A stretch of 64,000 nt of DNA from Astropecten irregularis (taxonomy: Eukaryota > Echinodermata > Asteroidea > Paxillosida > Astropectinidae): contig OZ020255.1 in the NCBI GenBank assembly GCA_963971285.1, positions 1,116,001 to 1,180,000 on the forward strand, given 5' to 3'. Below the pieces are notes generated by a model. That model was not told the origin of the DNA. It did not search any database and saw only the letters and a list, made by a program, of their open reading frames with translations. The position numbers were made by a program, and so were the translations under genes. Shown piece by piece: positions 55,501 through 61,500 of this stretch (positions within the stretch are counted from its first letter, which is position 1; every line of letters begins with the position of its first letter).

Positions 55501-58500
55501 TTTTTTGCCTCTGTGTTTTTTTGCGCCCCCTAAAAAGTGGCGCCGGGGACCATCACCAACCTTTGATATGAAGATGGTGTTGACCAGGGGGTTGTGCTGG
55601 AAGTTCTGCAGAATCTGCAACCTCTCTCCCTGGCTGGTAGGCCCATAGATGTACGGTCTGGGAAGGAGGTTGGGGAAAAACATCATACAGGGATGAGATT
55701 GACCAATGATAAAAATAACTGAAAACAACTGACAAGGGGCATAAAACAAACTCTGAAAATCTCCTATACTTTTGTGCAAAGCCTGTGAGGTACCAAAAAT
55801 CTGAATTAAAACAAAAAAATCAGGAATCCGATAAAAATCTGAGAAATCTCATCCCTGGTCATATGAAAAAAAAGTTCAAATAAGAAAGGTCTTATCTCGA
55901 TAAGATAACAATATGCTATAAACGATTGCATTCATATAGGGGCCGTCCATTATTACGTATGCACAAAAGGGGGGAAGGGGGGTTCAGACCAATGCGTACC
56001 GTACGCAAGCGGAAAATTTGCATAATCTTGCGAAAAGAGTGAAACAATAAAGCGAGAAAAAAGCACCGGGATTGATCTGATTTCCCTTTTTTTTATACAA
56101 CAAAATACAAAATAGTAAAATACGTCTGTACATGTATAAAAACCGGTTAAACTTTAGTCATTCATTTCAAAATTTGACAGTAACGTCCCAATAACGGTAC
56201 CGGCCCGGATTACTGTGACATTTTAATGATGCTAAAGCAGATGAAAAACCTAATGTGGAATGCGACATGCATACAGGGGGTTGGGGGGGGGGTGGAGGGG
56301 GGCTTGCGTACACAATGCGTACAGGGGGGAGGCGTGTCCAAAAAGTCGCCATTTCGTTGCGTACGTACTTTATGGACAGCCCCATACAGTGGTGCTCCAC
56401 TATAACAAATACCCCTATACCGAACATTTGGCTATAACGAACACCATCCTCGACTCCCAATGTTTGTGTACAATACATACCGAATATGGTTCTTTAAAGA
56501 GGATGTTGAATGTTTTGATGCAGAGCGCCCTCTGTTGGTCAGTAATAATGAGCAATGCTGGAACGTTTTGATGCAGAGAGCGCCCTCTGTTGGTCAGTGA
56601 TAATGAGCAATGCTTGAACGTTTTGATGCAGAGAGCGCCCTCTATTGGTCAGTGATAATGAGCAGTGCTGGAACGTTTTGATGCAGAGAGCGCCCTCTGT
56701 TGGTCAGTGCCAATGAGCAATGCTGGAATGTTTTGATGCAGAGAGCGCCCTCTGTTGGTCAGTGCCAATGAGCAATGCTGGAATGTTTTGATGAAGAGAT
56801 CGTCCTCTGTTGGTCAGTGATAATGAGCAATGCTGGAACGTTTTGATGCAGAGAGCGCCCTCTGTTGGTCAGTGATAATGTGCAGTGTTGGAACGTTAAG
56901 ATGCAGAGAGCGCCCTCTGTTGGTCAGTGCCCATGAGCAATGCTGGAATGTTTTGATGAAGAGAGCGCCCTCTGTTGGTCAGTGATAATGAGGAATGCTG
57001 GAACTTTTTGATGCAGAGAGCGCCCTCTGTTGGTCAGTGATAATGAGCGATGCAAGGAATGTTTTGATGAAGAGAGCGCCCTCTGTTGGTCAGTAATAAT
57101 GAGCAATGCTTGAACGTTTTTATGCAAAGAGCGCCCTCTGTCTGTCAGTGATAATGAGCAATGCTGGAACGTTTTGGTGCAGAGAGCGCCCTCTATTGGT
57201 CAGTGATAATGAGCAGTGCTGGAACGTTTTAATGCAGAGAGCGCCCTCTGTTGGTCAGTGCCAATGAGCATTGCTGGAATGTTTTGATGCAGAGAGCGCC
57301 CTCTGTTGGTCAGTGCTAATGAGTAATGCTGGAACGTTTTGATGCAGAAGGCGCCCTCTGTTGGTCATTGATAATGAGCAATGCTGGAACGTTTTGATGC
57401 AGAGAGCGCCCTCTGTTGGTCAGTGATAATGAGCAATGCTGGAACGTTTTGATGCAGAGAGCGCCCTCTGTTGGGCATTGATAATGAGCAATGCTGGAAC
57501 GTTTTGATGCAGAAGGCGCCCTCTGTTGGTCATTGATAATGAGCAATGCTGGAACGTTTTGATGCAGAGAGCGCCCTCTGTTGGTCAGTGATAATGAGCA
57601 ATGCTGGAACGTTTTGATGCAGAGAGCGCCCTCTGTTGGTCAGTGATAATGTGCAGTGCTGGAACGTTTAGATGCAGAGAGCGCCCTCTGTTGGTCAGTG
57701 CCCATGAGCAATGCTGGAATGTTTTGATGAAGAGATCGTCCTCTGTTGGTCAGTGATAATGTGCAGTGCTGGAACGTTTAGATGCAGAGAGCGCCCTCTG
57801 TTGGTCAGTGCCCATGAGCAATGCTGGAATGTTTTGATGAAGAAAGCGCCCTCTGTTGGTCAGTGCTAATAAGTAATGCTGGAACGTTTTGAAGCAGAGA
57901 GTGCCCTCTGTTGGTCAGTGATAAAGAGGAATGCTGGAACTTTTTGATGCAGAGAGCGCCCTCTGTTGGTCAGTGATAATGAGCAATGCTGGAACGTTTT
58001 GATGCAGAGAGCGCCCTCTGTTGGTCAGTGATAATGAGCGATGAAAGAAATGTTTTGATGCAGAGAGCGCCCTCTGTTGGTCAGTGGCAATGAGCAATGC
58101 TGGAATGTTTTGATGCAGAGAGCGCCCTCTGTTGGTCAGTGCTAATGAGCAATGCTGGAACGTTTAGATGCAGAGAGCGCCCTCTGTTGGTCAGTGCTAA
58201 TGAGCGATGCTGGAACGTTTTGATGCAGAGAGCGCCCTCTGTAGGTCAGTGATAATGAGCAATGCTGGAACGTTTTGATGCAGAGAGCGCCCTCTGTTGG
58301 TCAGTGCTAATGAGCGATGATGGAACGTTTTGATGCAGAGAGCGCCCTCTGTTGGTCAGTGATAATGAGCAATGCTGGAATGTTTTGATGCAGAGAGCGC
58401 CCTCTATTGGTCAGTGATAATGAGCCATGCTGGAACGTTTTGATGCAGAGAGCGCCCTCTGTTGTTCAGTGCTAATGAGCAATGCTGGAACGTTTTGATG

Positions 58501-61500
58501 CAGAGAGCGCCCTCTGTTGGTCAGTGATAATGAGCCATGCTGGAACGTTTTGATGCAGAGAGCGCCCTCTGTTGGTCAGTTCTAATGAGCAATGCTGGAA
58601 TGTTTTAATGCAGAGAGCGCCCTCTATTGGTCAGTGATAATGAGCCATGCTGGAACGTTTTGATGCAGAGAGCGCCCTCTGTTGTTCAGTGCTAATGAGC
58701 AATGCTGGAACGTTTTGATGCAGAGAGCGCCCTCTGTTGGTCAGTGCTAATGAGCAGTGCTGGAACGTTTTGATGCAGAGAGCGCCCTCTGTTGGTCAGT
58801 GCTAATGAGCAGTGCTGGAACGTTTTGATGCAGAGAGCGCCCTTTGTTGGACAGTGCTACTGAGCAATGTAATTTGAGGATAATAGTTCTAACAGATAAA
58901 GCGAGGTTTGTTGAGTGTTCAACATCCTCTTTAAATTACAATAACGAATGACCACGATAACAGAAAATATCTGTGCATCCCGCAATGTTCGTTATGGTGG
59001 CGTTCCACTGTAATATGTAAACAAGGCTTAATCTTCAAGAATACGATGTGACGAGATTTCAGAATTTCAAAATTGAGTCTTACCTGTCCATGGCGATGGC
59101 GTAATGTTTGAGAGCAAAGACGTTGTCTGAGAAGACGATGACTTTGTCGTTCTGCTGCTCGTGGAATCGAACCAGGAACTGGCAGGCCCGAAACTTGTTG
59201 GGATTCATGACATACAAGAGCTGAAAAACAAGGCAAAGAATCAAGGCATTGAAAAGTGAACAAAGAAAAATTGACTGGAGCGGGAATGGATTCGAAATGG
59301 CGACCTCCTGAATACCGTTACAGGCGCTCTACCAACTGAGCTATCCAGCCCTACGTTGGTGGTGTCCGTAATAGTCAATTATCTTTGTTTGTTTGGCTGT
59401 CAGAAGCCATGAAACCACACACACACCGCCATACACCAAGGATCATTTCACTGATACGCGCAGAAATGCTGCAACCTGGGAAAGGTAAATGGGGGATCAC
59501 TCAAAGAGGATACGACTTTTTAATTAATATAATCATCAAATAACCACAAGGGAAACTGAATTTAAAGTCATTGAAAAGTGAACAAAGAAAAATTGCAAAC
59601 ATTAGCCGGAGTGTCTCATCCAATTTTATCTGACTTAGTGTACCGTAATCAGGGTCACATAGGGATACTGTACAGTGATGGATTTTGTTGGATTCAAGGG
59701 TTTGAAAAGGATTAGAGAGGATAAGAGCTCCCGTGAGAATGATCACAAGTTCTGTAGGATCGGCATGGTGCTCACCAGCTGTTTCCTGGTTCGGATGTTC
59801 AGATACTCCCGATAGAACTCCGGTGTCATTGGGCACCAGACCTCAGCACACTGCACCCGGGCGATGAAGTTCATCCGCTGGAGTTCCATCCAGTTGGCTT
59901 CGTAGAGTTTGGGCCCGATCAGGAAGTTCAGATCAGCAATCTTGTCGTCCTCCCGAACTAGGGTGGCTGTTAGGCCCAGCTTGCAGTGGGCCTGCACGAC
60001 AGTCAGCACACGCCGGAATTGCTTAGCAGGTATTGTGTGCACCTCTTGAGGGACAAAACGAAAAAGAGAGAATTTGATTTTTGAGTTTTATCATCAACCC
60101 TAAGGGAGAGGGACTTTAATGCTGGTTGGGCACAGCTCCTGAAAAGCCAGGCCAGGCCTGGGCTATTCCCTGGTCTTGAACTATCAATTTAAAGAGGATC
60201 TTAAACACTCAACAAACCACGCTTTATTTGTTATAACTATTATCCTTAAATAACTTGACATGAGAACAAATATTTATCTCACACTGAATACAGAAAGAGA
60301 GTCTTTTTGATGATTTTTCTCTCAGCCCGCAAGCTCCCCAAACTTCAGATTCTCTGAATTTCGCCAATGGGGGCAGCAGACAAATTTGTGTGATTTTGTG
60401 ACGTCAGATATGGGAGCCTTTTCTTTTGACTCTCTTTCTGTGTTGAGATAAACATTTTTTCTCATGTCATTATTGTTTTTTACTCTCAAAATGAACAAGC
60501 GCATTGCGCGGGTGCAGCGAATTATTCAGCAGCTCCCTGGAAAACAAAATGTTGTCATTTCCGGAAAATGGTTTTAATTACCACGGAAATTTCCGGAACT
60601 CTTACATCCCTGTAAATATAATTGGTTTGTTGAATCCAATTATAAAATAAGGACTTGTCAAGGTATGTTTGACGGTCGAGCCTGAATCGGTGACAGTCCA
60701 ACGTACCGTCCAGCAGCATCAGTCCCCATTCCTGTTGTCGGAGCCATTTCATGACCTGTTCAGCTTCCCATGACCTCTTGGTGCTATGAGCTACCATGGA
60801 GTAGGTACTGATGCATATATTACAACCTGTAAAGACACAGAAATAAGGATGTGACTGGATACACAAACAAGATCTGAAAACGCCAAGGAAAAAGCTGAAA
60901 TTTAAAAGTTCCTACACTTTTATACAGAACAGGCTGAAATTTCTGATTTAAAATCTAAACAAAACTTTTTCCATCCCTGGTAATCAATATTGACCCCAAA
61001 GAATCAATATTCGATACGTTAACATAACTGCTGCAATGCGTACCCACATGAAATGGTGAGTTGACCTGTTATAGCAATCTGCATTGACTGTTGTACAATT
61101 TTGGGTTCAATGAGTTTTTGTAAAAAAAGAAGTACTGACTTAGAAGTACTCGTACTCGTAAGATAAGTACTTGTACTTGTACTCGGAAGTACAAAGTACT
61201 TGTACTCAGAAACTTGGGGCCTTCCTCAAAGCTCGGCTCAGGCTCAGGCTCCACCTCCATTTCGTGAATCCATTTCAAAATTACGGGTATCAAAATAGAG
61301 GCATTTGGCTGCAGATAGGAAGTAGATTCTCGGTTTGAAAAGGACAACAGAGCTTCCGCTTCAATGGAAAACCACAACATATATTTTCAGTGTATGAAAA
61401 CAGAGAGGAAACTGGAGCCGGAGCTGGAGCTGAGCTTTGAGAATGGCACCAGGTCTTGTACTTGACCTGTCTTGGTACTCAACATTCAAAGTGCTAGGCA

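Follow-up and report, generated by a model that had tools for sequence, protein, structure and literature searches.

The window analysed here, a stretch of 64,000 nucleotides from the sea star Astropecten irregularis (GenBank assembly GCA_963971285.1, contig OZ020255.1, positions 1,116,001 to 1,180,000), carries within one intron of ERCC3 (XPB) a long tandem array whose 55-bp unit contains a sequence resembling the binding site of the zinc-finger protein CTCF. The pair of exons flanking the array aligned with XPB of the TFIIH complex (81 of 81 residues; E 2.3e-43), an open reading frame (ORF) farther upstream in the gene contains the beginning of the ERCC3_RAD25_C domain, and the GT and AG borders of the exon peptides place the intron at 55658-59083. 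The locus is laid out as follows.

56508..58869, minus strand (orientation of the CTCF matrix): tandem array with one CTCF-type site per unit; consensus of the site TGACCAACAGAGGGCGCTC; 42 of 43 units at p<1e-5
55658..59083, minus strand: ERCC3 (XPB) intron holding the array, from the XPB alignment of the flanking exons and the GT and AG borders
59084..59220, minus strand: ERCC3 exon upstream of the array intron; exon peptide 59086-59220, ending ...AIAMD
55552..55657, minus strand: ERCC3 exon downstream of the array intron, with an approximate 3′ end; exon peptide 55552-55656

Tandem Repeats Finder (TRF) reported 42.9 copies with 90% matches, and comparison with the consensus gave 43 units spaced by 55 bp in 40 steps and by 56 bp in two, so that the array fills about 69% of the intron. 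Its near-identical, head-to-tail units fall within the 10-100 bp range of a minisatellite. Together with the XPB-aligned exons, these results bear out a preliminary description of the window, which had proposed about 43 tandem CTCF-like sites in a single ERCC3 intron.

To score the sites we used the counts of the JASPAR CTCF matrix MA0139.1, with the base composition of the window as background. Read as its reverse complement, the consensus motif reached 21.7 bits, which corresponds to a p of about 3e-8 at a single position, and matches at p<1e-5 and p<1e-6 were obtained in 42 and 39 of the 43 units, respectively, the single unit that failed the weaker threshold being that at 57112; exact GCGCCCTCT occurred in 39 units and exact GCGCCCTCTNNTGG, hereafter the core, in 35. 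The rest of the window held six matches at p<1e-5, against about 1.2 expected by our estimate. None of 5,000 mononucleotide-shuffled 55-mers, doubled and scored on both strands, reached 21.7 bits (best, 17.7). The CTCF-like match proposed in the preliminary description is therefore genuine, and its figure of 15 of 19 bases was too modest. All 42 matches lie on the minus strand, which is the direction of ERCC3 transcription, and the sites do face the same way as had been claimed; their shared direction is nevertheless no independent evidence, and we rejected it as a sign of function, because tandem duplication alone yields same-facing units.

The host CTCF was sought with the finger region of human CTCF as query. 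Among 290 matches in the genome, by far the best (E 3.7e-89) lay on contig C9 in an ORF of 750 amino acids with nine fingers, whose top PDB matches were CTCF chains (E 1.3e-88), with alignments spanning fingers 2-10. Fingers 1 and 11 had no counterparts in this ORF, and a simple finger pattern applied to the forward frames of the surrounding DNA, 8 kb on the upstream and 9 kb on the downstream side, revealed no additional finger. At helix positions -1, 2, 3 and 6 of fingers 2-5, all 16 residues are as in human CTCF; in finger 6 the contacts Q-G-T-M of the human protein are changed to Q-S-S-E. In the usual antiparallel mapping, positions 7-9 of the motif are read by finger 6 and positions 10-18 (G-R-K-G-G-C-R-S-Y) by fingers 3-5. 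As judged from the predicted protein, the fingers that read the core are thus retained for its 3′ half and altered for its 5′ half. Passages of a study of echinoderm CTCF describe the loss of two of the eleven fingers (PMC13317027), as in the nine-finger gene identified here; tandem arrays and a changed base preference, which we describe, are absent from those passages. The CTCF gene is followed, about 14 kb farther downstream on the same strand, by a CTCF-like paralogue (C9:15132660-15133985; L103 4661-5986) in which we found six fingers resembling fingers 5-10 of host CTCF and a long EQNPQEI repeat near the C terminus; no counterparts of fingers 2-4 were found in its ORF.

The core is frequent well beyond the window, with 1,630 copies (836 + 794) in 475.7 Mb as compared with two (1 + 1) for its reversed control, which carries one extra CpG, and with the core count inflated by repeat families; 72 of the copies belong to 55-bp arrays, 35 to the window array and 37 to a sister array described below. 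When the 19-mer was searched with at most two mismatches, 351 genome occurrences were recovered, arrays included, against one for the control. Base preferences were then examined in a sample of dispersed sites comprising all 41 non-tandem places up to C1:12.37 Mb among 100 listed (L014-L053), with places in 138-bp repeats and listed places past that point excluded. Grouped by BLASTN at a cut of 1e-6 over at least 45 bases, these sites, joined by one 138-bp unit and one unit of the window array, formed 24 groups without common flanks. Ten of the 24 had more than one member, so repeat families account for part of the enrichment of the core. On these counts the core is an element enriched genome-wide in the host.

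Taking one member per group (n=24, the window unit among them), we found that, of the five outer positions left free by the search pattern, three agree with the CTCF matrix, namely Y18 in 19, R3 in 21 and Y1 in 18 groups (p = 0.003, 0.0001 and 0.01, respectively, against a background of 0.5 and with no correction for five positions). Position 7 was A in 15 groups, C in eight and G in one, while the human CTCF matrix has A 40, C 528 and G 334 of 913 at this position. At position 11, A was found at 1,630 places and G at 105 (six for the G-form control), these being raw counts that include repeats. Host sites thus prefer A at positions 7 and 11, where the vertebrate matrix has C/G and G, and the preference at position 7 may be linked to the changed finger 6, its expected reader. 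The loci L018, L031, L032 and L050, and also L020 and L015, include a repeat family in which the core follows shortly after a CCMACAATGC-like word, which we take to resemble a ZNF143/SBS site, and other sites with nearby words like AAGATGGCG or GCCATCTT, presumably of YY1 type.

The array itself is embedded in mobile DNA, in the form of two nested elements of the miniature inverted-repeat transposable element (MITE) kind.

56387..59010, no strand assigned: outer MITE-like element B, ending in CAGTGG and bordered by a TA duplication (56385-56386 and 59011-59012); its halves flank the inner element
56498..58930, no strand assigned: inner fold-back MITE-like element A, with ends AGAGGATGTT...AACATCCTCT and TTAA at 56494-56497 and 58931-58934
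58869..58930, plus strand: right arm of element A, directly after the last array unit

An 18-bp perfect inverted repeat encloses the array; it forms the terminus of a family of fold-back MITE-like elements bordered by TTAA on either side, as read at nine loci. In the ERCC3 copy the right arm of this inner element is whole, the left arm is reduced to about 12 bases, and the array stands in place of the interior. Two flank queries returned 1,784 and 2,659 candidate places, of which 40 were scored for each: the left half of element B was 85-90% alike at 39 more scored places and the right arm of element A 87-97% alike at scored places; the right half of element B was matched at further places, and solo copies of B are about 200 bp long. 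The inner element shows the TTAA-flanked inverted repeats and many copies of a piggyBac-type MITE, and the outer one the inverted repeats, TA duplication and many copies of a pogo/Tigger-type MITE; we take element A to be piggyBac-like from its TTAA alone, and element B is presumably pogo/Tigger-like. The same nesting, the inner family inside the outer one, was found a second time at C22:12268149. Birth of the unit within the inner element was considered and rejected, as GCGCCCTCT was absent from all ten loci inspected (L086-L088, L090-L095 and L081, of which L086 and L087 have common flanks), and the doubled unit, compared with these loci by BLASTN, gave matches of only nine bases.

A second array of the same unit lies on the same contig, 702 kb from the first, at C19:467967-470647 (L009 2968-5648). 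It comprises 48.9 units, and its consensus differs from that of the window array at one of 55 positions; among the best-scoring candidates of a genome search with the doubled unit, all 46 matches fell in these two arrays. BLASTN of 55801-59600 against the 8.5-kb surroundings of the sister array recovered the array and some other repeats, and no arms of either MITE-like element. By eye, the sister array follows immediately on an exon in a coiled-coil-like gene (AAAAAG|GTCAGTG), its first bases being the 5′ splice site GTCAGT, so that most units repeat this potential splice donor; the exon peptides of this gene had no match in Pfam. The arrangement suggests that the 55-bp unit may have arisen at the start of this gene's intron.

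The core was also met in tandem repeats with other units, as follows.

C1 at 491-494 kb, 785 kb and 1102-1104 kb, with a related pair at 615 kb, and C15:21355807: 138-bp unit
C16:8040056: unit of about 118 bp, from the match list only
C8:33369205: 60-bp unit, 2.1 copies
C29:1316866: 56-bp unit
C18:19095101: 39-bp unit
C23:608608: 33-bp unit
C21:6185613-6185944 (L097 314-645): 28-bp unit, 12 units; the CTCF-type core makes up half of the unit

The 138-bp satellite has one GCGCCCTCTAGTGG per unit and recurs at several places near one end of C1 (L055, L057 and L058) and on C15, and its arrays at L055 and L058 have 97-99% matches by TRF. We considered this recurrence in unrelated tandem repeats as a sign of selection and rejected it, since it is about as frequent as expected by chance: tandem repeats of period 20-150 cover 423 of 61,650 window bases (0.7%) with the array excluded, which roughly predicts ten of some 1,500 remaining core sites in such repeats. 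The share of 3.7% in the pooled loci is inflated, as L074 and L080 overlap the array.

Elsewhere in the window, long hexanucleotide arrays of AGCCAA and GAGCCT, at 9392-9770 and 54205-54533, stay open in several reading frames and are no genes in their own right. In the ERCC3 intron neighbouring that of the array lies a tRNA-like stretch (59320-59352, minus strand, AGGGCTGGATAGCTCAGTTGGTAGAGCGCC); the 150 bases around it are 85% alike to L009 2071-2214, so that it is apparently part of a tRNA-derived short interspersed nuclear element (SINE).

Transposable elements are known to spread CTCF sites, rodent SINEs being an example. Likewise, several repeat families here carry a CTCF-type core, but the carriers are other repeats, and the array consists of units amplified in tandem within a MITE-like element. 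Tandem repeats with CTCF sites are already known in human. The DXZ4 macrosatellite, as described in PMC3218863, resembles the array in having a CTCF site in its tandem unit and differs in its X-linked units of 3 kb, against 55 bp here, and in that CTCF binding to them has been shown. In K562 cells, according to PMC5007689, co-binding of BORIS and CTCF falls mostly on uncharacterised tandem repeats that form staggered clusters of binding sites; the clustering of CTCF sites within tandem repeats is shared with the array, but those repeats are known from human cells through chromatin immunoprecipitation data, and the array, described here from sequence, is paired with a nine-finger host CTCF. Our literature search on CTCF, sea star, chromatin and tandem turned up no such array, which does not prove them unreported, and the array adds a case in a lineage for which we found none. 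One further study (PMC6985041) reportedly covers DXZ4 together with FIRRE and ICCE.

Taken together, the data are probably best explained by a minisatellite with a genuine host CTCF-type site in each unit, amplified in tandem and carried as a passenger in mobile DNA. Several observations weigh against this reading, or against its assumption of a pure passenger. Fingers 6, 7, 8, 9 and 10 of host CTCF keep one, two, one, three and one of the four human contact residues, that is, 8 of 20 in all (3 of 8 in fingers 6-7 and 5 of 12 in fingers 8-10). Among the 24 groups, positions 2 and 19 have no clear base preference, and the commonest base at position 8 is A (8 of 24) instead of the C/T of vertebrates. 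Within the 55-bp arrays, divergence is lower in the 14-bp core than across the remainder of the unit (0.025 against 0.060 in the window array and 0.021 against 0.056 in the sister), and the core ranks fourth and first, respectively, among the 55 windows of the unit, a hint of constraint. The CpG of the motif is intact in 41 of 42 window units and the other CpG in 29 (Fisher 0.0007); in the sister array the figures are 40 and 31 of 49 (Fisher 0.07). These p-values are too small because the units share descent. Special conservation of the core is lacking in the tandem repeats with units of 138, 39 and 28 bp (ranks 120/138, 27/39 and 7/28), and in a 33-bp array of 4.6 units it ranks 5/33. Selection on the motif within arrays is therefore indicated by hints only, which are inconsistent among arrays. 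The assumption in the preliminary description that host CTCF has vertebrate-like specificity thus holds in part: the fully conserved fingers 2-5 and the genome-wide enrichment of the core speak for it, and the divergent fingers 6-10 and the differing preferences at positions 7 and 11 against it.

The same evidence bears on three other explanations. It is possible, though unlikely, that the array is a neutral minisatellite, methylated or heterochromatic, whose likeness to CTCF sites is of no consequence; repeat arrays and MITEs are often silenced, and the outer CpG is lost in 13 of 42 window units, but the near-complete retention of the motif CpG in the window array argues otherwise, tempered by its lower retention in the sister. 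Quite unlikely is a second explanation, that the motif is bound by another zinc-finger protein, such as the six-finger CTCF paralogue or a transposon-silencing factor. The 290 finger matches mark a zinc-finger-rich genome, the paralogue sits in tandem with the CTCF gene, the contacts of CTCF fingers 6-10 are poorly kept and many copies of the motif lie within repeat families; against this, fingers 2-5 of the CTCF orthologue, the expected readers of the fixed GGGCGC half, are unchanged, their counterparts 2-4 are missing from the paralogue ORF, and three of the five unfixed outer positions fit the CTCF matrix. Very unlikely, in our view, is a third explanation, in which selection maintains the array at ERCC3 as a functional and very dense insulator or domain boundary built on CTCF. 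Strong sites in 42 of 43 units and a core among the best-conserved windows of the 55-bp units would fit, as would the enrichment of CTCF motifs at domain boundaries in a sea star and a sea urchin, which passages of PMC13317027 describe as much lower than in zebrafish. The array, however, lies in transposon-like remnants within an intron, has a sister elsewhere, and carries a core that is not specially conserved in three of the four other tandem repeats tested; moreover, in the same two echinoderms boundary CTCF motifs have no orientation pattern and loop anchors are not enriched for them, according to the Hi-C results in those passages (PMC13317027). The proposal that the cluster acts as a unidirectional insulator or loop anchor consequently finds no support.

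Under the passenger explanation, a short piece of DNA with one CTCF-type site would have been amplified in tandem, and a multi-unit stretch would then have come to sit in the inner fold-back MITE-like element, itself nested in the outer one in the ERCC3 intron. Binding of CTCF to the array sites is plausible from sequence: most units are probably usable as CTCF sites, and the nine-finger host protein could bind many of the 43, because fingers 2-5, the expected readers of the GAGGGCGCT side, are unchanged. If it does, the 55-bp pitch would leave no room for nucleosomes, and the bound array would form about 2.4 kb of accessible, nucleosome-poor chromatin that could serve as a local CTCF sink or barrier, with insulation that would be at most modest and independent of orientation. 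The nested MITE-like elements, the sister array and the other core-bearing tandem repeats point to repeat dynamics as the reason for the existence of the array, and its persistence is most likely due to drift and repeat turnover rather than to selection for looping. A bolder and rather improbable extension would combine a shifted specificity of host CTCF (position 7 taking A or C instead of G, position 11 taking A), tied to the changed finger 6, with both arrays acting as strong local barriers of very high occupancy, irrespective of orientation, in an animal whose CTCF forms no directional loops.

These arrays bear on the question of whether CTCF of non-vertebrate bilaterians blocks loop extrusion and whether the orientation of its sites matters. 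With 43 same-facing sites in the window and a 49-unit sister on the same contig, the host offers a natural test at extreme dose: if even such arrays form no Hi-C boundary, host CTCF would be no directional loop barrier. The base preference of the dispersed sites, together with the change in finger 6, would in turn provide a precise prediction for binding assays.

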